Below, in pieces: positions 16,017 through 34,455 of a DNA stretch of 64,000 nucleotides. The position numbers were made by a program, and so were the translations under genes. Origin of the DNA: Conchocele bisecta (taxonomy: Eukaryota; Mollusca; Bivalvia; Lucinida; Thyasiridae); assembly GCA_029237695.1 (NCBI GenBank), contig CM055274.1, forward strand, positions 72,736,140 to 72,800,139, in the 5' to 3' direction. Each line of letters begins with the position of its first letter. Within the stretch, counting starts at the first letter, position 1. Below the pieces are notes generated by a model. It worked only from the letters and a program-made list of their open reading frames with translations, was not told where the DNA came from and ran no database searches.

Positions 16017-16022
16017 GTTAAA
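16017..16022. repeat. Left target-site duplication GTTAAA
   Basis: GTTAAA immediately before the element's first bases AGTAGTAATGG. It is exactly repeated at 34,814-34,819 after the last bases CATTACTACT. Six-bp duplications are the Polinton/Maverick hallmark. Confidence 0.95.
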
Positions 16023-16156
16023 AGTAGTAATGGGTGTCACTATGGCACGGTTTTTTAACATGTGTTTTTTACATAGACATTTTTTACCCTCGCACCGGGT
16101 GTCTATGTAAAAAACACATGTTAAAAAACCGTGCCATAGGTGCCACCCCTTATTAC
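16023..16156. other. Terminal hairpin, left end
   Basis: Bases 16,040-16,079 and 16,100-16,139 are perfect 40-bp inverse copies (CTATGGCACGG...CATAGACA) around a 20-nt loop. Weaker pairing continues to the very tip (AGTAGTAA..GGGTG against CACCCC.TTATTACT). A single strand of this end could fold into a long hairpin. Confidence 0.9.
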
Positions 16157-16380
16157 TCCCATTATCAAGGGGTGGGAACTTCTTGTATTACAGTATAAAA
16201 CCGTGCCATAGTGACAACCCTGAACCATTTTGATGATTCGTGAATTTTATCCGGGGGTGGGAACTTCTTGTATTACAGTATAAAACCGTGCCATAGTGAC
16301 ACCCCTGAACCATTTTGATGATTCGTGAATTTTATCCGGGGTGGAAACTTCTTGTATTACTCTATAGTGTCACCCTGAAC
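16023..16380. repeat. Polinton left outer terminal inverted repeat
   Basis: Matches the inverse of 34,456-34,813. It contains two or three tandem copies of 'AACTTCTTGTATTACAGTATAAAACCGTGCC' and 'CCATTTTGATGATTCGTGAATTTTATCC', and the terminal hairpin. Confidence 0.95.
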
Positions 16381-16425
16381 CAATAAGAGCAGTATGTAAG
16401 GTATTCATTTCTTGAGAAAGTGTAT

Positions 16426-16441
16426 AGCCCTGAAAAGGGCT
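16426..16441 (-). terminator. Histone-type 3' stem-loop SL1
   Basis: The sense (minus) strand reads AGCCCT-TTTC-AGGGCT, preceded by AAAAGACAAC and followed by ATACAC. The stem base pair 1 is A-T here against G-C in the other copies, a compensatory change. A purine-rich CTCAAGAAATGA lies about 10 nt further (16,405-16,416), like a U7-binding histone downstream element. It starts 16 nt past the stop of the gene at 16,458-16,670. Confidence 0.8.
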
Positions 16442-16457
16442 GTTGTCTTTTAGTAAA

Positions 16458-16670
16458 CTATGTAGTGTTCAGTTTACTCCACATACAATCGACGACTAAC
16501 TCGCACGCCTCACAAATTTCGAGGTCTTTAAGGTCCTCTTCTTCAAAAAAGCCTCCGTCGAGCTCTGGACAATTGTGTTCTTCCCCTTGCGTGTTCAACA
16601 CTGCATAACATTTTCTACACTCTATGTAACAGGACTCGCCGCACATAGAGCATTCTCCGTTCTTCTGCAT
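16458..16670 (-). CDS. Small cysteine-rich zinc-ribbon-like protein (Polinton)
   Basis: Seventy residues with nine cysteines: CSMC (7-10), C14, CRKC (18-21), C34, CEAC (53-56) and C62. The paired CxxC knuckles suggest one or two zinc-binding ribbons. The middle is acidic (FFEEEDLKDLE). The family is unknown to me; regulation or protein binding is inference. The gene sits between the outer and inner parts of the left TIR and has no counterpart at the right end. It has its own P1 promoter (TATA at 16,730-16,737, 60 nt before the ATG) and a histone-type stem-loop 16 nt after the stop, so it is a complete compact cassette. Confidence 0.7.
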   Translation of the reverse strand: MQKNGECSMCGESCYIECRKCYAVLNTQGEEHNCPELDGGFFEEEDLKDLEICEACELVVDCMWSKLNTT

Positions 16671-16729
16671 TCTTATGTAGTTGGTTGAACAGTTGAATGA
16701 CTAATGAATATAGCTGTATGTTTTTTTAC

Positions 16730-16822
16730 TTTTATACACATCAGAAGGATTGACCTACTTTTGATAGTTTAGTCAATTTTCAGATTTTCGACCAATCAGA
16801 AAGCACGTTGTATACGCGTTTT
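16730..16822 (-). promoter_or_regulatory. P1 promoter module, copy a
   Basis: On the minus strand: an ACGTTGT-containing palindrome remnant, CTTTCTGATTGG (inverted CCAAT), GACTAAACTATCAAAAGTAGGTC and ATGTGTATAAAAG. It matches copies b, c and d. It drives the gene at 16,458-16,670. Confidence 0.8.
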
Positions 16823-16842
16823 TGTGATATCCTAATAGATTG

Positions 16843-17079
16843 TACTGTTCCTGTATATAATTTTCAAATATTTTTGATAACTCCAATATTATCAAATACA
16901 TATGAAAATGTCCTAGAAATAATTTTCATCCACTTCTGACAACTCTAATATTGACATAAGTTGATGAAAATATATATTGATTGTGAATCAATATTTATTT
17001 TTCAATATAATGGTAAAATTGAATACAAGATATGTAAAGTTTTTATAATATTTTATTGAACAATAACATATTTACAACA
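16843..17079. repeat. Polinton left inner inverted repeat
   Basis: Inverse match to 34,202-34,445 ('TACTGTTC.TGTATATAATTTTC' through 'TTCAATAAAA'). At the right end it directly follows the outer TIR after 10 bp. Here the two parts are separated by 462 bp that hold a gene cassette. Confidence 0.9.
17052..17057 (-). terminator. Poly(A) signal of class-2 type
   Basis: AATAAA on the minus strand inside TTGTTCAATAAAATATT. The same string follows the gene ending at 23,945 (24,020) and the right-most gene (34,224). It lies 37 nt past the stop at 17,094. Confidence 0.75.
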
Positions 17080-17093
17080 TGTATGTTTAACAG

Positions 17094-17672
17094 TCAAGAG
17101 ATATGATCTATTTCTATTGGTTCAAAAATTGCCTTTGTCACTGTAGCGTGATCACTGTCCTTGAGGCGTGAGCAATGGGAACATACACACATTGATTCAG
17201 TCTCACTAATCTGTACTATATCCATTGGTTCAAAACTGTCTCTATGTCCAGGAAGCATGAGCAATGGAAGCGTTAGTCCAGACAATGTTTCAATCTTTAC
17301 ACTATTCCATAAGTACGGTTTACATCGGTTAAATAAGAAATTCACAATATTGTCATTTTCAACAACTTCGTTTCTCCATTGTTCAAATGTTATTTGTTCT
17401 ACTTTATTCCTTGAATCTTTGGAGAACCCCGTTGTTGCTAATAAGGCTTCCTTGAACTCTTCAAACATCTCTATTTTCTCTAATTCATCCTTGATGATCT
17501 TGGGTGTAAGATATTGTTCAATTGATACTTTAGTTTGAAAGCAAGTATCAATGCTTTCCTGTATGGTATGTGATTTAATAGATCTGTCGAGGATTCATTG
17601 TTACTGGTTTCCTGATTGCTATGTGATTTAATAGATCTGTCAGAGGATTCATTGTTTCTTCAACTGTGTCTA
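17094..17672 (-). pseudogene. Polinton hypothetical protein, 5' end disturbed
   Basis: The clear frame runs from 17,468 (MFEEFKEALLATTG) to 17,094, 124 residues, and stays open upstream to about 17,594. A TATA box (TATAAAAG, 17,707-17,716) suggests the real start is near 17,672. Between them a 54-bp tandem duplication (AATGAATCCTC...AAATCACATA at 17,652 and 17,598) with a 1-nt difference and an in-frame stop breaks the frame. The C-terminus has CVCSHCSRL, a possible metal site. No family recognised. It ends at an AATAAA signal, not a stem-loop. Confidence 0.5.
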
Positions 17673-17728
17673 TTCATAGAATGATTCAGTTATAATCCGT
17701 TCCTACTTTTATAGTCTTCAGTAACAAT

Positions 17729-18175
17729 CTACTTCCAGGATTGTTTGACTTGTTTCTTTAACTGTTCCAACCACGATTCATTGGGTCTAAAACTGATTTT
17801 GTTTTTAATTTGTACCCACAGTCTGTATGCTTCCAATTTCTCTTGATCGTCCAATGTCATATCTTTGAGAATTGGATACCATTCTTCCATAATTTTATAG
17901 GGATCTAATTTCTGTAGAGCTGTTAATATGAATAAATCTGTTTGTTCATCTTGATCTGTGAATAAGCACAGTTTATGTCGTACTTGACTTGGATGTTCAA
18001 CCTGACATCCATAACAATTGTCATTTACTTCTTTTTTAATTAATAATTGAAGTTGTTCAACCATACATTTATTGAATGTGTCATATATTGTCCTTCTTTG
18101 TCTAGGTATTTCACGGGATTTCTTTATCAGACAAACATCGTTTTGTAACCACAACTCATAATTATGCCCCATCAT
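17729..18175 (-). CDS. Polinton conserved-type protein with C2H2C motif
   Basis: 148 residues, intact. The N-terminal half is basic (RQRRTIYDTFNKC). Residues 54-70 read CYGCQVEHPSQVRHKLC, giving C54, C57, H61, H67 and C70, a compact zinc-site candidate. The C-terminal half is helical and hydrophilic, with W-rich spots (EEWYPIL, ESWLEQL). I recall similar NCxxCQxxHPSQ proteins next to other invertebrate Maverick genes but know no function. It lies between the left accessory genes on the same strand, with no P1 module or stem-loop seen. Confidence 0.6.
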   Translation of the reverse strand: MMGHNYELWLQNDVCLIKKSREIPRQRRTIYDTFNKCMVEQLQLLIKKEVNDNCYGCQVEHPSQVRHKLCLFTDQDEQTDLFILTALQKLDPYKIMEEWYPILKDMTLDDQEKLEAYRLWVQIKNKISFRPNESWLEQLKKQVKQSWK

Positions 18176-18321
18176 TTTTATTGTTTATTATCTAAAAGTA
18201 CTGTATAATATTTGTTGTTTCTAGAGCGAATACCTTGAAGATAATGGCTTATGACAAAATGTAAAACGTTTATATAGGTACAACTGATTACAAGTTTTTT
18301 TCTATTCTAAATATTTGTAGT

Positions 18322-18337
18322 GGCCCTGAAAAGGGCC
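18322..18337 (-). terminator. Histone-type 3' stem-loop SL2
   Basis: The sense strand reads CAAAAGGCCCTTTTCAGGG then CCACTACA: stem GGCCCT/AGGGCC, loop TTTC, A-rich 5' flank and ACTACA 3' flank. A purine tract (GAATAGAAAAAAAC) lies about 20 nt downstream. It starts 20 nt after the stop of 18,358-18,771. Confidence 0.85.
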
Positions 18338-18357
18338 TTTTGTCTTGATCGTCTAAT

Positions 18358-18771
18358 TCAAGTTTGCTGTTTATCATACTTGTTTACTCTTTTGATGTAT
18401 TTTTTATGACCACCACAGTCTCTGGATCCACAACTTCTACATGTTAAGAGAAATCTGTGTGTAGTTCTCTTGTTAGGTTTTCCACGAATCGCAAATGATG
18501 GTGCCGGAGCTCGTCGGATCTCCTCATCCCAGTCTTCTCGTTGTGGTTGCAAACTCGGTATCTCATCATTATCCCAGTTTTCTGTAGGCTTCGCCATAGT
18601 GTTCTGTGAAACATGTGTTCTGTTGATATCGTTCAGCAAATCATCGAACTTGTTCCAGTTAATTACGAAGCTATTCGAGGCTTCTCTAGCTTCAAATTTC
18701 AAATTATAGTAAGGAAATAAATTCCTAACCACGTACTCGTGAAATAAAATATTATTAAATAACAAATCCAA
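18358..18771 (-). CDS. Polinton hypothetical protein, basic Cys-rich C-terminus
   Basis: 137 residues. The N-terminal 40 are hydrophobic/aromatic (LLFNNILFHEYVVRNLFPYYNLKF). The middle is acidic with tryptophans (ENWDNDEIPS, REDWDEEIRR). The end is basic with CRSCGSRDCGGHKKY, a possible zinc knuckle. No family recognised. It is flanked by promoter P1b upstream and stem-loop SL2 20 nt downstream, so it belongs to the stem-loop class. A second methionine (MAKPTENW) at residue 59 could be an alternative start. Confidence 0.6.
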   Translation of the reverse strand: MDLLFNNILFHEYVVRNLFPYYNLKFEAREASNSFVINWNKFDDLLNDINRTHVSQNTMAKPTENWDNDEIPSLQPQREDWDEEIRRAPAPSFAIRGKPNKRTTHRFLLTCRSCGSRDCGGHKKYIKRVNKYDKQQT

Positions 18772-18846
18772 ATGTGTGACTCAGGGGTTGTACTCTGAAC
18801 AATGTAATGCTTCTCATAGAATGTAAATTAATGATTTTATGATCGT

Positions 18847-18940
18847 CTTTTATACCCATCAAACGGATTGACCTACTTTTGATAGTTTAGTCATTTTTTC
18901 AGATTTTCGTCCAATCAGAAAGCGTGTTGTAAACACGTTT
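18847..18940 (-). promoter_or_regulatory. P1 promoter module, copy b
   Basis: On the minus strand: CGTGTT-TAC-AACACG palindrome, CTTTCTGATTGGACG, ATGACTAAACTATCAAAAGT, AGGTCAATCCGTTTGATGGG, TATAAAAG (18,847-18,854). Near-identical to copy c at 24,557-24,649. The leader then shares 'GCATTACATTGTTCAGAGTA' with 25,205. Confidence 0.85.
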
Positions 18941-18948
18941 TTTTACAG

Positions 18949-19206
18949 TTAAAAATTGTGTATTATATCTTGCGAAAATTTATATACACCAAATGGCCTC
19001 ATGTTGTAAACTGTGAATGAGTGATCCCTAAAGTCTTTCCTTAGCATGACAGTCCAAAACGCATCATCTTCAATGATGCGTTTTGCACGCTCGTCAGTGC
19101 GTGCGAGACTTTTGGCATTACTCTCCGACAGATACAATTTTATTAACATAACCAGTAACTCCTCTGGTAGCACAGCTAACTGACTGTAGTTATTAAATGT
19201 GTCCAT
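18949..19206 (-). CDS. F-box-like small protein (Polinton)
   Basis: 85 residues. Residues 12-60 read VLPEELLVMLIKLYLSES, then KSLARTDERAKRII and DDAFWTVMLRKDF. The LP..LL..I...L, SL..T....., I..D..FW..ML pattern is that of an F-box (Skp1-binding) domain with the usual post-box FW. If real, the protein could recruit SCF ubiquitin ligase to host or viral targets; that role is inference. No substrate-binding repeat follows, so it would be a minimal adaptor. The leader just upstream (19,205-19,239) is a 35-bp exact copy of polymerase coding sequence at 22,275-22,309. It ends just before promoter P1b. Confidence 0.55.
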   Translation of the reverse strand: MDTFNNYSQLAVLPEELLVMLIKLYLSESNAKSLARTDERAKRIIEDDAFWTVMLRKDFRDHSFTVYNMRPFGVYKFSQDIIHNF

Positions 19207-19260
19207 GACTGAATTTCTGGATATTCAAACAACAATTCTTAATACACAGTGTATATTCAA

Positions 19261-22200
19261 TCAAAGTCTCAATGTTTTATAGCCGTATGGTACAGTATTG
19301 AAATTGTCAACAATGACACGTTTTGTGTACACAGATCTAAATGTCTTGCTTTGACATTCACTCGTTACTGTTCTGTTTGCATGTCTCCTGATTTTACATG
19401 CATACACAACTTTCACTTCGGTACTTCGGTCCTCTGCACATTGAACATACGTATCAAAGTTAACTACTTGACTTGTGTTGTAATCGAGTGTCAGTCCTTT
19501 AACTTTGCATTTGGATTTTATTTCCCCAGCTTTTGTTAGCAACTTGTATGCATAACTCTTTGGTCCTATTCCCCTAAAACTTATTATTTTATTTCCGGGT
19601 TCTTCATCAGTCCATTTACCAAGCCTACTATTGATAATGGGGTGGTTCCAGGAATTATGTTTGTGTATGTACATACAACTGTCTGTATCGAAATACAAGA
19701 CACGCTCATTTAACTTTTCCAAAACACATGTATAGTTCAAGTCTTGCATATGCTGTTACATATGATCCCACTATAACGTTTGATGTTGCATGGGATTCAA
19801 TGTGTTCAAGTCTAGTTTCATAGTTAACCAATATGAATGGACATTCATTATCAAATATTTCTACGTGTTTTACCATTATACATGGATTTGAAATCAAATC
19901 AAAATATTTTGAAGGATTATTGATGTATTCCGTTTGTGTCATGATTTCACGTTGTGCCAATTTACCCCATAAGCAATTTAACATAATCTTGGCAAATGCT
20001 CTACGCCCTGTATTTGATTGTATGTTTGATGGATCAAGACAAATACCTTCAGCATCTTCATAGTCCTTAACAAATTTTTCTTTGTCTTTTTCTGTTACAC
20101 ACCATCCTGGATAACCACTTGCTTCTTGTTTGATTTTAAGAAAACTGTCCACATATCCCGAGAAAAAATCATTAGATTTTTCCGAAAAATGCCATACTTC
20201 ATATGCGTCTAACAACGTATAGCCACAGTCCAATGCTTTAAACAATTCTATTGACACCCATGTACCAATCAAAGCTCTTTCTTCAATTGTATGTGTACAC
20301 TTTGTAGAACTTTCTTCTGCACATGTTCTACATAATGGAAACATGAGTTTGTTATTACAATGTGTTGGTAACACTGGATGAAATAGATTGTCGGAGGGAG
20401 ACTTTACATTTTATCAAACCCTCATACTGTCGGATGTTTTCTATATCAATATTTTCTTTTGTTAAAATATCGGGGTGTCCTATCGGATATTCTTTGTGTT
20501 TACATACAAATGGATACAATGAACAAATATCAATATATTTGATTTCATCATCTGAATTTTCTTCAATATCATATTTAATTTTTATAGCATTACAACGTCC
20601 ACCAAACAATCCTTCCCTAGGTTCAATCGGATCACAGTTTGAAAAGAATTGTTCGATCAACTTTTTGTATTCTTTATCAGTTTTCATTTTTAAATCAAAC
20701 TCATGTTCCCATATAGTGTGAATTTTGTAACCACTTACACTGAAATATTCCAATCTTTCAAATGTTTGAGAATATAAAATTTTTGCATTGATTCTCCATT
20801 TACCGGGTTTTTTAGATTACGATTTGGGTAACATTTAGGACAACCATGCCACAGGTCACCGAGAAATCATAGATAGTATTTGATTCTTTGTGAAACCCAT
20901 CTACAGTATAAGGACCAATTTGGTATTCACCACCATTTTTTGCATGTTGGATAACAATTATTGTTTTCGTGTGCAATACTTTGCATCCATCGAATACCTT
21001 TCATTGAAAATTTGCGTTTAATCGGATCTCTGCTTGAAATAATTCCGATCTGATTACTTGGCATATATTTGTTACGCCAAACTTTGTTACATGCGTCAGC
21101 GATTGTACTGGCTTCTAGAAACGGATCTATACCCCCATATTCCATGAATACCTTCCTGAATTCTCCACAACCACGTCTCAAAATATCTACATCCGATCGA
21201 CAATATTTTACCATTTCTTGTTTGAAATTGAAACAATCGTTGTTTTTCACATGTTCGTTATACCATGATAAAAACTTTTCCCTAGCAGTTATCCCCATTG
21301 AATCTGGTTTATAATAAGAGACATCAACGTATGGACCAACATAAGCGGCAAATTTATCAGTATTTGCCCAATGTGGAAAATATCCCTTAGCCATTTCTTT
21401 CAATTCAAAGGTTTCTGGAAATTTTGCCAATCCTGAATTTATGAAATTATATGAATCAATCAATCGTATACCTCCAGCTTCCATAACCATGATGTTATTA
21501 CCGTTCATTATTACCTTCGGTTGTAGCACTCCCCTTTCAATGAGATGATGAAGTATGAACTGACCATCATACGCTTTGAAATTATGGGCAATAGCTGTAG
21601 CACCTTTATGTTGTTTTGAAAACAACCAATTACAAAATTCTGTCAAAGTATTTTTTCCTTCAAATAGTACTTCTCGTCCTTCAGGAAACCGACTACAACA
21701 TTCACAATTAAATTCTAATGGTTCATTGATACATTCATCACAAGCTCTGTGTGCAATACAATAATTAGGAATGTGTACACCAGTGTCTTGTTGACATTCG
21801 AAATCATAAAATATGAAAAACGGTTCCGGATCATCTTCTTCAGTTTTGCTTTTATACTGCTGAATATGACATTTGTGGTCAAAATTAACAATCTCTTTAC
21901 AAAATTTACATTTCTTCTTTCCTTTGCATGTGTATGATTCTTCTTGGAATCGGCAAACTGCCCTCCACATTTACCGCAACATTTTATGAGTTGACAAATT
22001 GATTTATTTTGTCGCCCTTCAATTTGTTTGTGATTTGTAAAACACGTTCCACTATAAAATGTTCTTAGGCAATCTTTACACTTGATACAATCTACCACAT
22101 GACATTTTGTTTTGGAACGACATGCCTTACAAGAAGTAGGGCATATATGTGTTTCACGATTTTGGTAACCAATATCGCACATCTCACAATAGTATACACA

Positions 22201-23093
22201 GCCAAGAAATCCAACAATATTTGTAATACAGTCATAATGATCTTGATTATAGAATACATGTATCACTTTGCTGTATGACTGAATTTCTGGATATTCAAAC
22301 AACAATTCTGTTTTCACATGTTGTTGATGAATCTTGATCACCTATCTGGATTACATATAAATGTTTTTGTATACAAAATATTGTTGTTTTTTCTTATAAT
22401 TCTCAATTCCACAGCTTTTTAAATTCCAACTTCATTCAATAATTTCTCTGCTTCAAGACGTTGTAAAGGACGTGATGTCTGTCGAATTACATGCCATCGC
22501 ATATTCCATGTTGAAGAAACTTCTCTATCAGCATGACATTTTCCAACAACAATAGCCCTGGCTAAGCACATATTGTCTTTAGAATTTTCAATTTTCACAA
22601 CAGTTTTCTTTTTTTTCGTGAAAACTCAATCAATTTCAGAGGTCATCTTCTTTCTTCCAGAACCTGTTGGTAATTTGGTAAACGTTGTTTCGATTGTCAT
22701 CTCACCATCGTTCAAATTAAAATCCATATTCGATTGTATAACGTTTTCTATTTCTTGTAACAATATGTTCCCATTCAAATCTTCAACATTCAAGAATGGA
22801 ATCGGTATCCCCATCTTTAATGCAGGATGATTTAATGTTACCCTGATTTTGTCGTGTGGATCACCATCAATTCGTTCGATGATTTGATGAACGATATCAT
22901 CAAATAATACCCCAACGAAATTTTGAGGGTGTTCGTCTACATCAAATTTCTTGAATGTTGTTTTAAAAACTGATGATTCAGTTCTGAATTTTCTTGATCT
23001 TCGACTTTTTTCTTGTATAAGATCATAAAATCTTCTAACATCTGGTGACTCTTCGGTTTCACTCTCGGTGTCCGAGTATGGTACAAGTGGCAT
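19261..23093 (-). pseudogene. polB: Protein-primed DNA polymerase B, frameshifted
   Basis: About 3.8 kb, the length expected for Polinton pPolB (roughly 1,200-1,280 residues). The N-terminal part (23,093-22,626) has the IRVTLNHPAL, IQSN and FNLNDG blocks typical of these enzymes, followed by an LARAIVV block near 22,560. Several CxxC knuckles follow (22,200-21,970). The 3'-5' exonuclease motifs are FYDFE (Exo I), HNFKAYDGQF (Exo II) and YCRSDVDIL (Exo III). Polymerase motifs: REGLFGGR and DICSLYPF (motif A, near 20,480), KIMLNCLWGKL (motif B, near 19,980) and YFDTDS (motif C, near 19,680). The gene replicates the element from its termini in the known model. At least six frame changes (near 21,960, 20,930, 20,870, 20,780, 20,365 and 19,735, plus one or more between 22,630 and 22,340) break it, several in A/T runs. 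Confidence 0.9.
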
Positions 23094-23128
23094 GTTTAAT
23101 TTTATAATAAAGTATTAATCAATTTACA

Positions 23129-23220
23129 ACAGCTTATATACTATCGTTAAACCGTGACGTCCTATAAAAGAAGCCATAAATTCCATATGGTCATCATTAG
23201 TCTACTGAACTCTGAAGCGA
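23129..23220 (+). promoter_or_regulatory. P2 promoter module, copy a
   Basis: CAGCTTATATACTATC, CCGTGACGTCCTATAAAAGA, AGCCATAAATTCCATATGG and TCTGAAGCGA. About 90% identical to 25,110-25,200. It has a CRE-like TGACGTC directly before the TATA box. It serves the zinc-knuckle gene. Confidence 0.8.
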
Positions 23221-23221
23221 C

Positions 23222-23945
23222 ATGGACTCTCAAGCGACAGATCGATCTTCCATTCAACTACAAAAACACGAGGAACATTTTGCTGACTATTTCGAAAGTA
23301 TGAAGTATTGGTACAAAGGATGCGAAATGAATTTATATGTAAATCCGTTTACTCATGAAGTTGAATTCAGCAACATACCGAAAACCTATTCTATAAAACA
23401 TAATTGGGAACTTTGTTGGATCGTTTACATCTTACAATTATTGGGCGGGCGACTCTGAGTACCTGATTTCTACAGGAAAGAGGTTTACAAAATTCAGCAT
23501 CGATGAGAAATATGGAGGGGGCGAAATATCACCTAACAGATGTTACATTTGTCAATCAACGGAGCATTGGGCTAATAAATGTAGCCAGAAGCTACAAGGA
23601 AAGTACATGGATGTGTTTGTGAATCCATATTCTCATGAAGTTCAATTTTTGGATTCTCCTAGTATTACCCAAGACCTGTGTGTTGGAAAATTCATGTCTT
23701 ATTACAACGAAGAGATTCATATGAAGCTACCAAGAAATGTTATGTACGCTGGATGTTTCATCTGTAAATCGAAATCACATTGGGCTTGTGATTGTGACCA
23801 GAAACCAACGCCTAACACAGTGGATGTTAAGACCACCGAGAAACCAGTGAACAATCGTAAACGTAAACGCCAAGATGAACCGAGTGTTCAAATCAAGAAG
23901 AGGAAAATTGCGGTTCCAGTCAAGAAGATGAAAAATGACTTTTAA
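23222..23945 (+). pseudogene. Tandem CCHC zinc-knuckle protein (Polinton), one frameshift
   Basis: Two internal repeats, each with a VNP(F/Y)(T/S)HEV(E/Q)F block and a retroviral-type zinc knuckle: CYICQSTEHWANKC (near 23,545) and CFICKSKSHWACDC (near 23,755), both C-x2-C-x4-H-x4-C. The C-terminus is very basic (NRKRKRQ, KKRKIAVPVKKMK), a likely nuclear-localisation or nucleic-acid-binding tail. A nucleic-acid chaperone or packaging role is inference. The first frame (from 23,222) is left near 23,400 and coding continues in another frame to TAA at 23,945. Promoter P2a is upstream; the class-2 poly(A) string is at 24,020. Confidence 0.7.
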
Positions 23946-24019
23946 ATGTATTTGTATTGTTAAATGAATACAATTTTGAATAGACACTATGTATTATATG
24001 TTGAAATATATTGTTGTTC

Positions 24020-24025
24020 AATAAA
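24020..24025 (+). terminator. Poly(A) signal of class-2 type
   Basis: AATAAA in TTGTTGTTCAATAAAATATT, 75 nt after the zinc-knuckle gene. Same context as at 17,052 (minus) and 34,224. Confidence 0.75.
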
Positions 24026-24146
24026 ATATTGTTAAATAAATAAGCTTAACTGTAAAAACGTGTTTTGTTATTTATCATTTTTATAATTTATATGGTTAAT
24101 TCATATGATTTATAAAATGCAAGTGTTTCTTTCTGGAAAATATTGT

Positions 24147-24162
24147 GGTCCTGAAAAGGACC
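24147..24162 (-). terminator. Histone-type 3' stem-loop SL3
   Basis: The sense strand reads TCAAACGGTCCTTTTCAGG then ACCACAA. The third stem pair is T-A instead of C-G, a compensatory change. CCAGAAAGAAAC (24,125-24,136), a very good histone-downstream-element match, begins 10 nt after the stem. It starts 13 nt after the stop of 24,176-24,376. Confidence 0.88.
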
Positions 24163-24175
24163 GTTTGATCTCTGT

Positions 24176-24376
24176 CTAATAGAATTCAGACAGATCAGGA
24201 TATAAGTTATTCAATTTAACTTTCCAAACAATTTTTTGTTTGGAAGGCCAATGATAACCACGTCTTGCAAGGAATTGTTGTAATAATTCTTTATTTCTCT
24301 CTTTTTCTTCATTATCATCATTTTTCCTGGAGAATACAATGTTTCTCAAACGGTAGAAGAATTTCTTGATCTGCAT
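24176..24376 (-). CDS. Small basic Polinton protein
   Basis: 66 residues (MQIKKFFYRLRNIVFSRKND, ending LYPDLSEFY), lysine/arginine-rich, no domain recognised. It is intact and followed 13 nt later by stem-loop SL3. Its upstream region (24,400-24,500) has CCAAT-type boxes (AACCAATGAAA, AACCAATCAAA) but not the full P1 module. It is divergent from the gene at 24,698. Confidence 0.55.
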   Translation of the reverse strand: MQIKKFFYRLRNIVFSRKNDDNEEKERNKELLQQFLARRGYHWPSKQKIVWKVKLNNLYPDLSEFY

Positions 24377-24556
24377 TCTGGTATGTAAGAATGAATAGAA
24401 TGAATACTATACGCTTTAGATCCAGAAATGATTTCAGCTATGATTTTCATTGGTTAAAATTTAGAGGATTTGATTGGTTAAGGATTCTGTCCCTCTCATT
24501 GGATGAATTTCAATCCGTTTTTACAACCAAGCTTGTGTAAACAAGCTTTGTTCACA

Positions 24557-24649
24557 AAACGTGTTTGCAACACGCTTTCTGATTGGACGAAAATCTGAAA
24601 AATGACTAAACTACCAAAAGTAGGTCAATCCGTTTGATGGGTATAAAAG
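24557..24649 (+). promoter_or_regulatory. P1 promoter module, copy c
   Basis: CGTGTT-TGC-AACACG palindrome, CTTTCTGATTGGACG (inverted CCAAT), AATGACTAAACTACCAAAAG, TAGGTCAATCCGTTTGATGG, TATAAAAG (24,642-24,649). Followed 49 nt later by the ATG at 24,698. Confidence 0.85.
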
Positions 24650-24697
24650 CATGTGTTTTTAACACATAATTCACATGTTTCATTGAACACTCAAGAA

Positions 24698-24970
24698 ATG
24701 AATACCGATCGAAGTAATATGATGGGAAGGCGGATCGCAGATTTGGTTGAAGTCGTAGGGTCGATGCAGAAAGACATAGAAACGCTGCAAATGGTTACGG
24801 CTGACCTGTTGAGGAAAATAAAGGAAAAGCCAAAACCTGCTTACAAAGAATTTGAAATGGAGGACGGCAAGAGTTTTACGACAGAAGCAAAACCTGACAC
24901 TACAGGCGTTTTTAGAGTTAAAACTCGAGAATCAAACAACAAATGGCGTCGCACTACCATTGAATATTAG
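24698..24970 (+). CDS. Small coiled-coil protein (Polinton)
   Basis: 90 residues from ATG at 24,698, chosen because it is the first ATG in frame 49 nt after the TATA box. Residues 10-45 (RRIADLVEVVGSMQKDIETL, then LLRKIKE) have heptad-like leucine/valine spacing and probably form a coiled coil. The rest is charged and likely disordered. No family recognised. It belongs to the P1 plus stem-loop class: SL4 starts 32 nt after the stop. Confidence 0.65.
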   Translation: MNTDRSNMMGRRIADLVEVVGSMQKDIETLQMVTADLLRKIKEKPKPAYKEFEMEDGKSFTTEAKPDTTGVFRVKTRESNNKWRRTTIEY

Positions 24971-25002
24971 TTTGTACAGTTGTACACTCTAAGCAAAAAA
25001 AC

Positions 25003-25018
25003 GGCCCTTTTCAGGGCC
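25003..25018 (+). terminator. Histone-type 3' stem-loop SL4
   Basis: AAAAAAACGGCCCTTTTCAG then GGCCACCACA: a textbook metazoan histone stem-loop with GGCCCT/AGGGCC stem, TTTC loop, A-rich 5' flank and ACCA 3' flank. ACGAAAAGATTA (25,032) is an HDE-like tract 13 nt downstream. Confidence 0.9.
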
Positions 25019-25109
25019 ACCACACATTATTACGAAAAGATTACTTTGCGATTTATATCCTAATAACTGTGTATATTGTATCATTAGTTGTTAAACATTA
25101 AGCATTTTG

Positions 25110-25200
25110 CAACAGCTTCTATACTATCATTACATCGTGACGTCTATAAAAGAAGCCATAAATTCCATATGGCTATCATTAGTCTACCGAACTCTGAAGC
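25110..25200 (+). promoter_or_regulatory. P2 promoter module, copy b
   Basis: Near-identical to 23,129-23,220: CGTGACGTC, CTATAAAAGAAGCC, ATAAATTCCATATGG, TCTGAAGCGA. Confidence 0.8.
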
Positions 25201-25237
25201 GAAAGCATTACATTGTTCAGAGTACAACCCTGTTAAA

Positions 25238-25686
25238 ATGGATCAACTAAGAAAACATTGTGATCAGCATCCGGAAGTCGAAGAATGTAAATGTTTCGAT
25301 TTTCTCAAAAATTGTACTATAGGCATAGTAAACGGAGAATACACTATTAATAATGTAAACATTTATGAATCACCCAAATATCAATATTATCCTTTCATAG
25401 GGTACATAACAAACAATTCTAGATTTATACCGTTTGGTATTTGTCCAAAGATAACTGTGATAGAAAAAAATAAAATTTATAGGTTAGTAAGTTCTAGAAA
25501 CAATACGGGAAGGATAGTCAGATTTACTTTGACAAGGATCTTAAACCTTTGCTTCATCTATACAGCCATAAAATCCTTTTTCCAAAGTTTTGGGATTTGA
25601 ACATAGAAACTAAAATTATTAAGAGTTATCCCAGTATCCCTCAATTAAATGTGAGAAAAGAGTACTGTAAATGGAATATTGGTTAG
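25238..25686 (+). pseudogene. Polinton hypothetical protein, one frameshift
   Basis: Start taken at ATG 25,238 (MDQLRKHCDQHPEVEECKC) because it follows the leader shared with the gene at 18,771. An in-frame ATG at 25,169 inside P2b is the alternative. Coding looks real to about 25,515, then continues in a second frame (YFDKDLKPLLHLYSHK, KFWDLN) to TAG at about 25,686. A single-base change near 25,515 explains it. No domain recognised. The protein would have a Cys/His-rich start and a hydrophobic/aromatic middle. Confidence 0.5.
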
Positions 25687-25712
25687 CAGCTATCGTTTTG
25701 TAAGACACACTG

Positions 25713-25773
25713 TGATTGGTCACTTGATTTTATCAATTTCTAAGTAGGTCAATCCTTCTGATGGGTATAAAAG
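25713..25773 (+). promoter_or_regulatory. P1 promoter module, copy d (proximal part)
   Basis: AAGTAGGTCAATCCTTCTGA, then TGGGTATAAAAG (TATA 25,766-25,773). An inverted CCAAT (GTGATTGGTCAC) is at 25,711. The distal half differs from copies b and c. The leader ACGATCATAAAATCATTAAT is shared with copy b. Confidence 0.8.
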
Positions 25774-25807
25774 ACGATCATAAAATCATTAATTTACATT
25801 CGATACT

Positions 25808-26332
25808 ATGGCTGACAACAGAAGTTACGATTTTGCCGCTCAAGATTTTGATATATTAGCAGAGGCGATGAATGAAATATATCAACCAACCTCTCAGCCA
25901 CCACCACAACAACAACAACAACTACAACAGCAGCCAACTGTTCCTGTATACATTCCAATAGAGAAGAATATAGAAGATTCCATGATATTGAAAGAACTAC
26001 AGAAACTGAACAACAATACAGAAAGAATATTACAGAAACTAGAGAACATCGCATCACGACATAGTGTTCAACTGGACCGTATGACAGTCACATTATCAAA
26101 GAAACTAGAGAAACAGTGTGAAAATCGGGACTTGACATTTAACACAAAGCCATTGAAAGTGCCTATCAAGTTTGAATTGCACAAGAAAACAGTGGCACAG
26201 ATCAGTCAACATGCAGAAAGGGCCCTGTGTGATACAGTTGACGAAAAAATACATTCACATAAAAGCGGGCTTGGTGCACATCGTAAACACATTCGTCCAG
26301 AAAAAGAAAATCATTTGATTCCACGAAAATAA
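25808..26332 (+). CDS. Gln-rich coiled-coil protein (Polinton)
   Basis: 174 residues, intact. An acidic/aromatic N-terminus (DNRSYDFAAQDFDILAEAMN) is followed by a PPPQQQQQLQQQP tract (residues 31-43). A coiled coil follows (residues 53-100, ILKELQKLNNNTERILQKLE), then a basic tail rich in His/Lys. It may be a structural or DNA-associated virion or regulatory protein; function unknown. It belongs to the P1 plus stem-loop class, but its stem-loop SL5 lies 173 nt past the stop because a low-complexity stretch (26,340-26,500) intervenes. Confidence 0.65.
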   Translation: MADNRSYDFAAQDFDILAEAMNEIYQPTSQPPPQQQQQLQQQPTVPVYIPIEKNIEDSMILKELQKLNNNTERILQKLENIASRHSVQLDRMTVTLSKKLEKQCENRDLTFNTKPLKVPIKFELHKKTVAQISQHAERALCDTVDEKIHSHKSGLGAHRKHIRPEKENHLIPRK

Positions 26333-26339
26333 AATAGTA

Positions 26340-26360
26340 CCAGTACTCGTGCCTTTTTTT

Positions 26361-26411
<51 letters not shown>

Positions 26412-26500
26412 TACCAGTACTGGTACTATTTTATTTTTAACATTGTACCAGTACTCGTGTCTTTTTTAAAAATAAAAATAACAGTACTCGCACCTTTACC
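26340..26500 (+). repeat. Poly(A) run and GTACCAGTACTCGTG repeats
   Basis: Three copies of (T/G)TACCAGTACT(C/G)GTG.C flank T-rich and A-rich runs, including about 54 consecutive A at 26,355-26,408. It sits between a stop codon and its stem-loop. Looks like slippage expansion plus local duplication. Confidence 0.85.
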
Positions 26501-26505
26501 CAAAC

Positions 26506-26521
26506 GGCCCTTTTCAGGGCC
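26506..26521 (+). terminator. Histone-type 3' stem-loop SL5
   Basis: CCAAACGGCCCTTTTCAGGG then CCATCCC. Same stem and loop as SL2 and SL4, 5' flank CAAAC. The downstream tract is weaker (CGAACAGAATT, 26,535). Confidence 0.82.
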
Positions 26522-26616
26522 ATCCCAAACTATTCGAACAGAATTCCTTTTCAAATAAAACATTGCTATACACATGATAGTATATCATTATACATCTGGA
26601 CCTTGTACTGCAAACA

Positions 26617-27290
26617 ATGGAGAACGAAGACCTATTGTCTTTGTTATTTCAACATCCGTGTGACATTTATATAGCAGGTCCAAGTGGATGTGGAAAAACT
26701 GAAATTGTACAAAAGATTATTGATTATCGCAAAGATTTATTTAATATTGTACCCGAAAAAGTAATATGGTGTTTCAAAGAATGGCAGCACATCTATACTA
26801 TTATGCAAGAAAAGTTCAATTTCCTCAAATTTATTGAAGGTATCCCAGATGATGAAAATTAAATTGTATCCGATGTAACAATTCCACATCTTGTAGTATT
26901 TGATGATATGTTAGGAGAAAAAGAAAAGATGAAGAAAAAATAAAATTGTGGTTTACAAGAAAAGGTCATCATAGAAATTCAAGTGTAATATATATTACAC
27001 AATATATGTTTCAACAAAATAAATCGAGTAGAACTATAAGTCTTAATTCTCGTTACATGATTTTATTTAGAAATGAACGTGATGGGTTACAAATTAAAAC
27101 ATTATCACGTCAAATGCAAAGTCCACACTTAATTTCAGCCTACAATGATGCTACTTCTCAGGAACATGGTTATTTGTTAATTGATTTTCAATCACGAATT
27201 AAAAAACAATTTCGTTTAAGAAGTGACATTTTTCATCGCTGGATTACAGATAAGGATGTTAGAGGACCTACTATTTATTCTCCAATATAG
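26617..27290 (+). pseudogene. Packaging ATPase (A32/FtsK-HerA type), broken
   Basis: Genome-packaging motor ATPase of the Polinton/adenovirus-like group. Walker A is AGPSGCGKT (residues 20-28). Walker B is LVVFDDM near 26,893-26,913. The C-terminal part (26,946-27,290) holds SSVIYITQYMFQQ with the sensor glutamine and the NSRYMILFRN block. The frame has an in-frame TAA at 26,860-26,862 and a frame change near 26,935 in an A run. It opens the plus-strand virion-gene block. Confidence 0.9.
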
Positions 27291-27332
27291 TAATATAGAT
27301 ATCAGTATTGTACTTTCTATCAAGGTACCAAC

Positions 27333-28271
27333 ATGGCTTTCTCATACACATCAGGAAATATTATTCATGCTTTAAGAAATTCGAGTGATGAACAACATAA
27401 ACTTACAAGAGAAATAATATTGAAATCTGGATTAAAAGAGATATTGAAATGGTTTTCAATAGCTGCTCAAAATATAGTTGAAAATAAAATAAAATTACCA
27501 AAACAAACAGTGCGTTTTATAGAAAAAAATAAAAAAGATGTTAAACAATTAGCGGATCCTACAGTTGATGATGATACAAAGAAAAAAATAATATTAAAAC
27601 CTGGTGGTGGGGGGTTTTTAGGTGGTGTAATTATTAGAAGTTTACTTCGTTGGACAGGTACAAAAAACGTGAAAAATAGAAAACTAAACAAAAAACAAAC
27701 TAAAAATAAAACAATTAAAAAACAAAAGAAAACACGAAATAAAAAATCTCAAAAGAAAACAACTAAAAAGAAAACAACTAAAAAGCAAAATGAATCTTTA
27801 AGATTTTCTTCAATGTCTAGTATGTCTACAAATCCTAGTCCTGTTAATTCACGTAGATCTATATCACCGTTTCATACACCCTCATCGACTGGGAAACCTC
27901 AGTTCACATCGACACCTATTTATATTAGATCACCACAATTACCATTTACACCAACTTCTAGCAAATCTGGATCATCATACAATGCATCTTTTCCCAGTAA
28001 TTCGGGTTCATTTGAGAGACAGTCTCCAAAAAAAAAGAAGTTTAAGTATGGCCCTGAAATTGAAAATTGGTTTAGACTTGTTAATAAAACAACAAAAGAA
28101 CATGAAAAACTGTTACAGGAATATAATGCATTGGATGAACATCCAATAGCTAGGTTTTCACCGTTAAGAACACCTTTGAGATCTCCTAAAACCAAAGAAG
28201 CTGTCAGAAACAAACTTATTCAAAAAGAAAAGGAAATAAAACATCTAAAAGATTTTGCGTTAAAAAAATAA
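27333..28271 (+). CDS. Basic core-type protein (Polinton virion block)
   Basis: 312 residues, intact. Residues 45-105 have a pattern (KLPKQTVRFIEKNKKDVKQL, then LKPGGGGFLGGVIIRSLLRW) resembling the small GG-hydrophobic proteins of Polintons that are compared to adenovirus core peptide X. A lysine/threonine-rich stretch follows (residues 112-155), then a long Ser/Pro/Thr disordered region and a charged helical end. DNA condensation inside the capsid is a reasonable inference. The neighbour at 28,375 is a shorter protein of similar layout. Confidence 0.6.
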   Translation: MAFSYTSGNIIHALRNSSDEQHKLTREIILKSGLKEILKWFSIAAQNIVENKIKLPKQTVRFIEKNKKDVKQLADPTVDDDTKKKIILKPGGGGFLGGVIIRSLLRWTGTKNVKNRKLNKKQTKNKTIKKQKKTRNKKSQKKTTKKKTTKKQNESLRFSSMSSMSTNPSPVNSRRSISPFHTPSSTGKPQFTSTPIYIRSPQLPFTPTSSKSGSSYNASFPSNSGSFERQSPKKKKFKYGPEIENWFRLVNKTTKEHEKLLQEYNALDEHPIARFSPLRTPLRSPKTKEAVRNKLIQKEKEIKHLKDFALKK

Positions 28272-28374
28272 AAAATCCAGAATTAAGAGTAAAAATTAAA
28301 AGCTACTTAGCTGTATAAAATACAGTTATTAATTAATTTTGTGTCATTCAATATAAAGTATTGTTAGTATAAAG

Positions 28375-28767
28375 ATGGGTAAGGTCAAGAATAAAACCAG
28401 TAAAAAGAAACCATTAATTAAAAAACATGGTGCTATGCTTTTGGCTATAGCTAATGAAGCTAAAAAATATCGTGAAAAATTAATAAAAAATGCACCAAAT
28501 CATATAATTAAGTGTATTTGCGAATGTTGTCACAATCTCTTAAAAGGCAATGTCACACTTACATCTGATCAGAAACATAAATTGTATCCTAAGCGTAAAC
28601 ATCTCAGACAACTTGTATCAAAATCAATTTCAATTAAGAAAAATAAAAATATTATAAATCAGACAGGAGGTATTTTACCATTTTTACTTCCATTAATAGG
28701 TAAAGCTATTCTATGTAGTGCACTTGGTGTTGGTGCACGAGCAGGTATTCGAGCTCTAGTTAAATAA
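28375..28767 (+). CDS. pX-like basic/hydrophobic core protein (Polinton)
   Basis: 130 residues, intact. A basic N-terminus precedes a CICECCHNLLKGNVTLTSDQ block and KRKHLRQL, then QTGGILPFLLPLIGKAIL, a hydrophobic C-terminus. 'Q.GG.LP.LLP' ends are a recurring feature of small Maverick/adintovirus proteins likened to adenovirus pX. A packed-genome or membrane-active role is inference. The stop overlaps the next start (TAATG). Confidence 0.65.
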   Translation: MGKVKNKTSKKKPLIKKHGAMLLAIANEAKKYREKLIKNAPNHIIKCICECCHNLLKGNVTLTSDQKHKLYPKRKHLRQLVSKSISIKKNKNIINQTGGILPFLLPLIGKAILCSALGVGARAGIRALVK

Positions 28768-29500
28768 TGTCAGTCCGAGAAATGGCACTTGTTCCTTTTC
28801 ATTTACTGGAAGAAATGAATAAATGGAAAATAGAACAAAGTCAAAAACCTCAACTTTCACCGGATCCACAAATTGCAAATACAGCTAAACTTCAAAATAA
28901 ATTATCTAACCTTTTAGAAAGAACAGATTTATCGGAAAGTGAAAAGGTAAGACAGCACGGAGAAACATTACATAAATTTCAGGAATCATTTAAAAAAGTT
29001 TTAGAACCTCAACATGTTACAGTAAATGAAAGTACAAAAAGACCGCTTAATGATAGGATTTTACAAAGTATACCAAAAACAATGCAAAGAAAGGCAGAAC
29101 TTCTTTTAAGCATGCTGAAAGATAATCCAAAAATCAGTTGGGATGAAAATGGTTTAGTAACATATAAAGGAAAACTTACAAAGGGATCGAATATTATTGA
29201 TTTAGTTTAATGACACTTTAACGTCAAAGAAAAGGATTTAACCCCAGAGGTTGGGAGACATTCAGTACAGCTTTACAGGAACTCAATATACCACAAGACG
29301 TAGTTGGTAATAGACAACGATGGAACTGGATGCATAAATATCAAACTGATACATCTGACATTGAGTCGGATTCGATATTTAGTACACCTAAAACAGTAAT
29401 GAAACATCGTAAAACACCAAAATCAAAAATTTCAGTCACCCCAACTGGTATAAAAAGAAAGTCTGATTCAACATATCTTAAAAAATGGGAGCCTTATTAA
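28767..29500 (+). pseudogene. Polinton conserved virion-block protein, one break
   Basis: The first frame (28,767-29,210) begins MALVPFHLLEEM-like and continues through SDLSESEKVRQHGETLHKFQ-type helical sequence to a WDENGLVTYKGKL strand block. After a TAA at 29,208-29,210 coding resumes in another frame (RKGFNPRGWETFSTAL, NRQRWNW) to TAA at 29,500. The two-part layout, with a helical N-terminus and basic tail, occurs in other Polintons as an uncharacterised protein between pX-like and integrase genes. Confidence 0.6.
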
Positions 29501-30603
29501 AGCATAAGAGAAGAAACTTAATTCATTACTAAAGAAAATATATTATGATCCAAAAAGTTCAATTGCCTACACAAGTGCAAAACACTTGTATGATTCAATT
29601 AAACGAATAAACACATTTTCAGATGTTAGATTAAAACATATACAAGAATGGTTGAGCAGACAGAAAACATATACACTTCATAAGCAAATTCAAAGACGTT
29701 TTACACGTCGTAAGACAATAGTAGGAGGTATCGATCAACAATGGCAGGCTGATTTGGCAGATATGCAACAATTCTCAGGTGAAAATGAGAATCAAAGATA
29801 TCTATTGTGTGTAATAGATGTATTTTCAAAATATGCATGGGTCATACCCCTTCCTAACAAAACGGGGAAAACATTGATTAACGCGTTTGATTTGATACTA
29901 AAAACATCAAAATGCAAACCACGTTCTTTACAAAGCGATAAAGGAACGGAATTTAAAAATAAAGAATTTCAACATTTCTTGAAATCTAAGCACATTCATT
30001 TTTTCACAACCGAAAACCCTGCAATTAAAGCAAGTATAGTTGAACGATTTCAAAGAACTTTAAAAACACGTATGTGGAAATATTTCACATATCACCAAAC
30101 TAGAAAATATATTGATATTTTACAAAATATTGTTGATGGATACAACCGAACATATATACCATCGTAGTATTAAGAGGGCCCCAATTTCTGTCAATACCTC
30201 AAATGAAATTGAGGTTACACATGCATTGTATGGAATGAAACAAGCTATTTCAACCAAAAACAAATTACATGTCGGTGATTTAGTTCGTATTAATAAAACA
30301 AAACGCACATTTGAAAAGGGTTATCTACCAAACTGGACGAAAGAATTATTTAAAATATTTCATATTAATAAAAGTTTACCACCAACTTATAAAATTGAAG
30401 ATCTTGATGGTGAAAAAATAATGGGTACATTTTACGGAAAGGAAATTCAAGGTATAAAAGATGATGAAATATATGAAATTGAATCAGTTCTTGCTCGATA
30501 TACAAGACGTGTAGGTAATAAAACAATCAAGGAAACTAAAGTTCATTGGATGGGTTATCCGTCAAAGTTTGATAGCTGGATTTCATCATCAAACATAATA
30601 TGA
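29485..30603 (+). pseudogene. Retrovirus-type integrase with C-terminal chromodomain (Polinton)
   Basis: It inserts the element into host DNA and generates the 6-bp duplication. The likely start is ATG 29,485 (overlapping the previous stop); the frame changes near 29,505 and again near 30,150. The core contains WQADLADM (first D), LQSDKGTEF (second D) and KASIVERFQRTLK (E), the DDE triad. The C-terminus (30,470-30,600) is a chromodomain: YEIESVLARY...KVHWMGYPSKFDSWI. Chromodomain integrases can target chromatin marks in related retroelements. Length is about 365 codons, normal for the family. Two frame breaks prevent expression as written. Confidence 0.9.
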
Positions 30604-30881
30604 ATGAACAAGATATAATTGAAAACGGAAAAATAGAAAAACAAGAGTTTTCATCTTGTGGTAAACGAATACCAAAAAATCAATTTCGATATATTTCTCA
30701 AGTAGTTATAATATATGCAATTGTTGCAACAGCCATCATTCATTTAAGTATCCAAAGTCCTAATCGCGAATTGTGGCTCGTTCTTTTAAGTAGTTCCCTT
30801 GGATACATTTTACCAAGTCCCGGGTTAAAATTTAGCAAAAAACCACAGACAGGCTTCGATTTTACAGACGGTAAAAAATGA
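30600..30881 (+). CDS. Small transmembrane protein (Polinton)
   Basis: 93 residues with two hydrophobic segments (residues 34-51 VVIIYAIVATAIIHLS and 58-72 ELWLVLLSSSLGYILPSP). The 'ELW.LLSSSLGY.LPSP.LK' ending is a recurrent signature of a small Maverick protein next to the minor capsid gene. It overlaps its neighbours by four bases on each side (ATGA), a compact viral arrangement. A membrane or virion role is inferred. Confidence 0.7.
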   Translation: MNEQDIIENGKIEKQEFSSCGKRIPKNQFRYISQVVIIYAIVATAIIHLSIQSPNRELWLVLLSSSLGYILPSPGLKFSKKPQTGFDFTDGKK

Positions 30882-31775
30882 ATTCATTTTATGTAACCTT
30901 TTTCAGTGATAGTTCTATGGATATTTATCCATCAAATATACAATGTTGTTTCAAAGTTAAATTACCTCGAACAGTTCGTATCGATAAAGAAAACTGGGAA
31001 ATAGCATTAACGGAATTAATTATTCCTTCACAGTTTTTAAATATCACCAAAGACGAAACAGAATTTAATATTATAACAAAAGATTTATCTTTCTACTCGG
31101 ATGTTTCAGAAATAAAAAATAAAAAATTTGATATAAATGAGATAGGCTTTGATGAAGCTGGTACTCCTATTAAATGGATTATCAATTTTAATTTTCAACC
31201 TGGATCCTATTCATCAATAGCTCATGTATTGGAAACAATTGATAATATCATTCAAGATTCTTTTGGCGATATTTTTAAAAAAAACAAGCAATCGATTAAC
31301 GTTTCATATTCTCCGGGTATGAAACGTCCAAAATTTAGTTTTCATAAAATTCGCAAAACAGGAATTAAATTTAACCATACATTGTTTTTAAAGTCAGGTG
31401 GAGATCCAAAGTTAGTAAACGATACATTTTTTGCAAACAGTAATGCAAATGATTTTTTTCCACATTTGTCAAATTTAAATGAGGGGTTTAAATCATTTGT
31501 TTATTTACTCTGATATTGTTGAATATTCGATTGTAGGACATATTCAAGCTCCGATTTTAAGAGTTGTACCATTCAAAACATCAAATTCAATTGAAAATGA
31601 TATAGGTAGTCAACATATTAACCATGAATTTTTAAACTTACATTATATGCCTATATCAAAATCTGAATTTGATACAATTCATATAAATATAAGAGGAGAT
31701 TCTGGCAATCCTGTTCATTTTGTTCTTGGAAAGTCTATGGTTAAGTTACATTTTAGGAAAAGAAAAATAGATTGA
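30878..31775 (+). pseudogene. Minor capsid protein (penton-like), one frameshift
   Basis: Single jelly-roll vertex protein of the Polinton capsid. The start reads NSFYVTFFSDSSMDIYPSNI and VKLPRTVRIDKENWEIALTE, the family's usual opening. The second frame (from about 31,490) has FIYSDIVEYSIVGHIQAPIL and the C-terminal strand GNPVHFVLGKSMVKLHFRKR. The frame change lies near 31,495 in TTTATTTACTC. It stands directly before the basic protein and major capsid genes, as in other Polintons. Confidence 0.88.
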
Positions 31776-31777
31776 AA

Positions 31778-32179: not shown

Positions 32180-32187
32180 AATAAAAA

Positions 32188-33495: not shown

Positions 33496-33507
33496 TATTG
33501 GACAATT

Positions 33508-34142: not shown

Positions 34143-34201
34143 TATTGCATGTACTTTTGTAAAGATCAAATATGAATATCATATCTGGTCTATAATTCCA
34201 T

Positions 34202-34445: not shown

Positions 34446-34455
34446 ACCCCTAAAT

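Follow-up and report, generated by a model that had tools for sequence, protein, structure and literature searches.

Five small genes of a bivalve Polinton are followed by putative histone-type 3′ stem-loops

Introduction

Can genes that do not encode histones, carried by a virus-like mobile element, end their transcripts as histone genes do? This question is raised by a Polinton/Maverick element in the bivalve Conchocele bisecta, which lies in a stretch of 64,000 nucleotides (nt) that we analysed whole and call the window (GenBank assembly GCA_029237695.1, contig CM055274.1, positions 72,736,140 to 72,800,139). Five small genes of the element, here g1 to g5, are each followed by a hairpin, SL1 to SL5. 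An initial annotation of the window, made from the letters alone, had read these hairpins as the signal that ends the mRNAs of replication-dependent histone genes in animals. We consider it probable, at roughly three chances in four, that the five genes carry this signal and that their mRNAs would be bound by SLBP, cut with the help of U7 and left without a poly(A) tail. This estimate draws on features read from the sequence, namely the identity and orientation of the hairpins, a purine block at a set position, a promoter box at four of the five genes, the dissimilarity of the coding parts and the identity of the carrier as a Polinton. From them we infer that the mRNAs lack poly(A) tails, are bound by SLBP and are coupled to S phase.

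Histone-type stem-loops

All five hairpins are present on the strands first reported, each with a 6-bp stem and a TTTC loop, and all match the Rfam family Histone3 (RF00032), for which the gathering score is 34 bits:

16426..16441, minus strand: SL1, AGCCCT-TTTC-AGGGCT; RF00032 31.3 bits at 16402-16446 (minus), under the gathering score
18322..18337, minus strand: SL2, GGCCCT-TTTC-AGGGCC; RF00032 37.0 bits at 18297-18342 (minus)
24147..24162, minus strand: SL3, GGTCCT-TTTC-AGGACC; RF00032 36.3 bits at 24122-24167 (minus)
25003..25018, plus strand: SL4, GGCCCT-TTTC-AGGGCC; RF00032 39.0 bits at 24998-25043 (plus)
26506..26521, plus strand: SL5, GGCCCT-TTTC-AGGGCC; RF00032 33.8 bits at 26501-26546 (plus), just under the gathering score

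By this covariance model the hairpins are of the histone type. E-values of the five sites range from 3e-8 to 2e-5 (for a 30-kb stretch and 4227 families), and no sixth Histone3 match was found at E up to 1 between positions 12000 and 42000, the remainder of the window being covered by a search at the gathering score and by the core pattern. The expectation that the model would pick out these five sites was thus borne out in that only they match, but two of them do so under the gathering score. SL2, SL3 and SL4 are the sole matches to any Rfam family at its curated threshold in the entire 64-kb window. Five copies of the core pattern GGYCCTTTTCAGGRCC, allowing up to two mismatches, are present in the 64 kb, where 0.02 would be expected, and none of 100 shuffles has as many.

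The signal also has a consistent strand and structure. On the sense strand of the gene the loop reads TTTC, not GAAA, in every case, and each hairpin lies 3′ of a small open reading frame (ORF) in its orientation, as had been claimed. Stem pairing is complete (30 of 30 cells, equalled by 11 of 500 shuffles) and includes the two compensatory changes noted before, from G-C to A-U in SL1 and from C-G to U-A in SL3; covariation from five sequences is supportive, not decisive. In RNA folding the stem belongs to the centroid structure of all five sites, and an equally good fold arises in 3, 2, 11, 0 and 3 of 200 shuffles for SL1 to SL5, respectively.

In an ungapped alignment anchored at the stem, the sites are on average 90% identical in the stem-loop, against 34% upstream, 38% at +4 to +12, 46% at +13 to +24 and 32% at +25 to +45, which rules out recent copying of long flanks. 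Two A columns before the stem are invariant, in keeping with the A-rich 5′ flank first described. The description of the 3′ flank as ACCA-like in three sites proved loose: the first four bases after SL1 to SL5 are ATAC, ACTA, ACAA, ACCA and ATCC. No T-run comes immediately after any stem, and SL3 has TTTT at +7 to +10. A viral-contig locus (L008) with the identical 16-mer scores 24.8 bits for Histone3 against 33.8 to 39.0 for SL2, SL4 and SL5; thus the flanks of these three sites add to their match.

A looser hairpin scan (6-bp stem, G at position 2, loop T-N-T-N, G-U pairs allowed) returned other sites that we judged unlike the histone signal, including 25899-25935 (minus) in a CAA repeat, 31608-31623 (minus) and several outside the element.

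A positioned purine block downstream

Purine tracts had been reported at about 10 to 20 nt past the stems. They are present and more tightly placed than that, with GAAN{1,2}GA beginning between +14 and +16 at all five sites amid mostly dissimilar sequence:

16405..16411, minus strand: GAAATGA, +15 from SL1, candidate histone downstream element
18301..18307, minus strand: GAATAGA, +15 from SL2
24128..24133, minus strand: GAAAGA, +14 from SL3
25034..25040, plus strand: GAAAAGA, +16 from SL4
26536..26542, plus strand: GAACAGA, +15 from SL5

Because this motif was originally chosen by eye, we repeated the comparison with no motif named, over every 5-letter word that has a single internal gap of 0 to 2 nt. 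In the 45 nt downstream, GAA-GA is the sole such word that all five sites share inside a 3-nt band, and no shared word arose in 1000 shuffle sets or in 1000 sets of five random sites of the element. In histone pre-mRNA the 5′ end of U7 small nuclear RNA (snRNA) pairs with an element 3′ of the stem-loop, and this element is purine-rich, according to the accessible parts of two reports (PMC7026596 and PMC5011920, respectively). The position and composition of the block fit such a U7-binding element. Additionally, four sites have a CA whose last base is at +5 or +6 (in SL3, CA stands at +2/+3), near the histone cleavage points given in the available text of two papers, at 4-5 nt (PMC7026596) and at 5 and 7 nt (PMC6303110) past the stem.

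Five dissimilar small genes

The hairpins follow five short ORFs. In line with the claim that four lie close behind a stop codon, the distances are 16, 20, 13 and 32 nt, and the fifth is 173 nt:

16458..16670, minus strand: g1, 70-amino-acid (aa) Cys-rich ORF; stop 16 nt before SL1
18358..18597, minus strand: g2, 79-aa ORF; stop 20 nt before SL2; frame open to 18771, start uncertain
24176..24376, minus strand: g3, 66-aa ORF; stop 13 nt before SL3
24698..24970, plus strand: g4, 90-aa ORF; stop 32 nt before SL4
25808..26332, plus strand: g5, 174-aa ORF; stop 173 nt before SL5

Shuffles of the stretch from promoter to hairpin (for g3, starting 100 nt upstream of its ATG) reached the observed ORF length in 2, 13, 11, 2 and 0 of 1000 cases for g1 to g5. 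No blastp match links any two of the five proteins at E up to 1, and being so dissimilar they point to a control cassette, not a gene, as the shared unit. None matches a Pfam family at the curated cut-off; weak matches of g3, g4 and g5 lie far below it and were not used. A search of 5.8 billion proteins, made with g5, gave no homologue of it (0 of 60 candidates scored). A scan for the motif LxCxE/D that covered the ORF pieces other than the one at 25238 found none.

The cassette of g1 is contained entire, with promoter, ORF, SL1 and purine block, in one segment of the left inverted repeat of the element:

16381..16850, minus strand: segment holding the entire g1 cassette

This segment is an extra 470 nt of the left repeat, and the right repeat has 18 nt at that place. 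Lying inside a one-sided segment, the cassette looks like a unit gained or lost whole.

About 44 consecutive A residues (26366-26409, sense strand) lie between the g5 stop and SL5. This run, flanked by GTACCAGTACT repeats, may be a repeat expansion or a tail-like insertion and accounts for part of the long distance from stop to stem. A separate 85-aa ORF at 18949-19206 has a weak F-box-like match (E 0.086) below the cut-off.

Promoters and poly(A) signals

Four of the five genes share a promoter box, AGTAGGTCAATCC:

16739..16759, minus strand: shared box of g1, followed by TATAAA
18857..18877, minus strand: shared box upstream of g2, with TATAAA 257 nt before the g2 ATG
24619..24639, plus strand: shared box of g4
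25743..25763, plus strand: shared box of g5

The box with TATAAA 23 nt from its start occurs at four sites in 64 kb, before g1, g2, g4 and g5, and the 21-base pattern without the TATA box would be expected 0.03 times. The probability that all four promoter genes are stem-loop genes is 7e-4, given five such genes among 22 ORFs, a list of our own choosing in which broken genes are counted once. The box of g2 lies more than 260 nt before its ATG, so that three of the five genes fall inside a 260-nt count and g2 is the fourth; a TATA box is close by in three of the five. The intergenic stretch between g3 and g4 is divergent and holds several CCAAT boxes.

Genes without a hairpin at 23222/23607 and 25238 have TGACGTC and TATAAAAG boxes instead, and A[AT]TAAA hexamers 75 and 44 nt after them, respectively. 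This second promoter type, TGACGTC followed by TATAAAAGAAGCCATAAATTCCATATGG, stands at 23150 and 25140 before the two genes. The two types suggest two regulatory classes.

Discussion

The claim that these are histone-type ends is supported by the RF00032 matches, the positioned purine block, the short ORFs and the TATA boxes close by in three of five genes. The likeness to replication-dependent histone mRNAs (RF00032) takes in the 6-bp stem, the UUUC loop and the A-rich 5′ flank. It extends to the genes themselves, which have the hairpin 13-32 nt past the stop in four of five cases, a purine-rich block, short ORFs, and TATA and CCAAT-type boxes before most of the five. Bivalve and cnidarian histone genes likewise have a hairpin near the stop, a purine element, no introns and short untranslated regions, as far as the accessible text of the two reports goes (PMC6210712, PMC5011920). 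In Lucina pectinata, according to the available portion of the former, a palindrome lies near the stop codon and some genes have purine-rich elements (PMC6210712). The L. pectinata genes differ in that they encode histones and in that purine elements are described for only four of them, farther from the palindrome or just before it. From replication-dependent histone genes the five genes described here differ in that they are not histones and are sited in a virus-like element.

Several results weigh against the proposed histone-type ending. SL5 and SL1 fall just short of the curated cut-off reached by the other three sites. The copy itself has decayed and its frames are broken. Duplex energies with the human U7 5′ end, possibly a poor proxy for the host U7, are no better than shuffles for three blocks and weakly better for two (25 and 18 of 300 shuffles as good). 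The promoter evidence is uneven: g3 has neither the shared box nor a TATAAA within 260 nt, the TATAAA of g2 is 257 nt from its ATG, and TTTCTGATTGG, the CCAAT-type box taken singly, is no rarer than expected by chance (four found, 2.2 expected). The gene calls depend on the arrangement of ORFs and signals, g5 having no homologue and g1-g4 matching no Pfam family at the curated cut-off. Both g2 and g5 may produce polyadenylated mRNAs, since A[AT]TAAA hexamers occur 169 and 176 nt past the g2 stop and between the g5 stop and SL5. Finally, the Histone3 model matches none of four distant Polinton loci (L002-L005) at E up to 1. These loci are no test of the claim, because the region of PolB and the small genes was undetected there (no tblastn match, at E up to 1e-3, to PolB pieces or the small-gene arm); the claim concerns one element copy, and the loci compared cover the structural arm.

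The same hexamers bear on a different account, in which the hairpins bind SLBP in the cytoplasm for translation or stability and the mRNAs end at ordinary poly(A) sites with no U7 processing. The hexamers before SL5 and past g2 (AATAAA in the latter case) would suit it, as would human U7 pairing that is not significant overall. We nevertheless regard it as improbable, given a purine block fixed at +14 to +16 in all five sites, which would have no obvious role without processing, and the lack of A[AT]TAAA within 150 nt past the stops of g1-g4. Within that distance the hexamer follows 10 of 17 ORFs without a stem-loop and one of five with it (g5 only), a contrast that is mild because the background in this AT-rich element is 0.26 per 100 nt. 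A little less credible is that the structures are virus-type transcription-termination hairpins, or DNA-level palindromes serving as protein-binding or replication sites, that merely resemble histone ends. Transcript-ending hairpins do occur in giant viruses, and the same 17-mer is found at four IMG/VR loci, one of them (L008) with a Histone3 score below the cut-off. However, the TTTC loop, the CAAA-type 5′ flank, the block at about +15 and scores of 31-39 bits fit the histone signal, and the hairpins all lie in gene sense with no T-run right after the stem. Least probable of all, we think, is a functionless relic, that is, a cassette from a captured host histone gene that hitch-hiked by duplication. 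The copy has indeed decayed, with broken frames, and promoter stretches are repeated inside the element; yet hairpin and purine block were kept, with two compensatory changes, while the surrounding sequence diverged, and the five coding parts have no mutual blastp match.

If the five genes do have histone-type ends, host SLBP would bind the hairpin in an active virus and the U7 small nuclear ribonucleoprotein would pair with the purine block. Cleavage about 5 nt past the stem would leave a short mRNA that lacks poly(A). Such an mRNA would be exported, translated through SLBP and destroyed together with histone mRNA at the end of S phase, and the five genes would be confined to S phase or to SLBP-rich cells such as eggs and early embryos. 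Other genes of the element would use ordinary poly(A) signals, making two classes of viral mRNA. The control cassette would most likely have been captured first from a host histone gene and have spread later over several viral genes. We lean only slightly towards the broader proposal that a Polinton lineage built a second mRNA class on the host histone-mRNA pathway, with a CCAAT/TATA promoter, an SLBP hairpin and a U7 element, for early regulatory genes tied to host DNA replication, and that these would be the first viral genes, other than histones, to exploit the metazoan machinery that processes histone 3′ ends.

In the literature searched, which was partial and mostly without subscription journals, we found no report of histone-type ends on viral or transposon genes and no paper joining the histone stem-loop with a Polinton. 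The words 'histone', 'stem-loop' and 'polyadenyl' are all absent from the main text of a paper on Mavericks (PMC8097293). The findings suggest that the element couples the expression of some of its genes to the replication of host DNA. If this is true, the histone signal that a mobile virus-like element has put on five dissimilar genes, along with the downstream element and a promoter box in common, would offer a DNA virus a simple way of having genes timed to S phase, or to germ cells and embryos rich in SLBP. Such genes would also provide natural non-histone substrates for SLBP and U7 biochemistry, and part of Polinton expression would be missed by poly(A)-selected RNA sequencing.

The carrier element and its relatives

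By its termini, target duplication and genes, which agree with the first identification, the carrier is a Polinton:

16023..34813, no strand: Polinton/Maverick element, 18,791 bp, termini AGTAGT...ACTACT, recognized by inverted repeats, target duplication, PolB and integrase Pfam matches and capsid relatives
16017..16022, no strand: left target-site duplication, GTTAAA
34814..34819, no strand: right target-site duplication, GTTAAA

Its inverted repeats comprise 363+144+68 nt at 94-98% identity. Each repeat contains a perfect 40-bp palindrome with a 20-nt spacer (16040-16139 and 34697-34796); a mir-3688 match there, far below the gathering score, is probably due to the long perfect stem. The accessible part of PMC8097293 describes (AGT)2//(ACT)2 termini and 6-bp duplications in vertebrate Mavericks. 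The element resembles known Polintons (adintovirus-like) in its 6-bp target duplication, AGT-AGT/ACT-ACT termini, inverted repeats, PolB, integrase and putative capsid protein, and differs in the five extra small genes, a cassette with putative histone-type ends. Promoter stretches recur inside it.

Polinton PolB is of the protein-primed type. Here PF03175 matches two PolB pieces (3e-15 and 5e-9), and the organism-named relatives of one piece, at 39-44%, are from an acorn worm, soft corals and a spider, closer relatives being nameless. The integrase matches PF00665 (6e-14), with a weak chromodomain match below the cut-off. The candidate for the double-jelly-roll major capsid protein has no match in the Pfam search and was called from its relatives by sequence, of which a protein search gave 354, at up to 72% identity; ten of the 120 listed are organism-named, nine from bivalves (Mercenaria, Crassostrea, Saccostrea) and one from a Thiodiazotropha metagenome-assembled genome (MAG). 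These capsid relatives point to a bivalve as the probable host, for or against which the PolB relatives do not speak. A Walker-A-like GPSGCGKT in the ORF at 26617-26862 marks a candidate packaging ATPase, pieces of which also match beside other Polinton genes in L002 and L003. This copy has decayed, for PolB and some further genes are broken across several frames.

Neither the capsid protein, singly or as a 28-row alignment, nor a 26-row PolB alignment matched anything in the viral contigs, and the capsid protein had no match in phage records. The stem-loop patterns gave one match in the viral contigs for AAANNGGYYCTTTTCARRRCCAC (L001, opposite the strand of a 634-aa frame, with two G-U stem pairs), four loci in IMG/VR for GGCCCTTTTCAGGGCCA, including L008, and none in the viral contigs for GGCTCTTTTCAGAGCCA. 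We take these matches as chance or unrelated, a judgement that for the GGCCCTTTTCAGGGCCA loci draws on an Rfam and open-frame check only.

Among the genome contigs, four of the 40 stretches matched by the capsid alignment are those at L002-L005. There, Polinton structural arms stand in contigs filed under bacterial MAGs, most likely as animal DNA in the bins; the bins are those of tubeworm and mussel symbionts and two others. At 11734-11798 of L003, about 670 nt past the capsid match, there is a twister-P1 ribozyme match of 28.9 bits, against a cut-off of 67.2.

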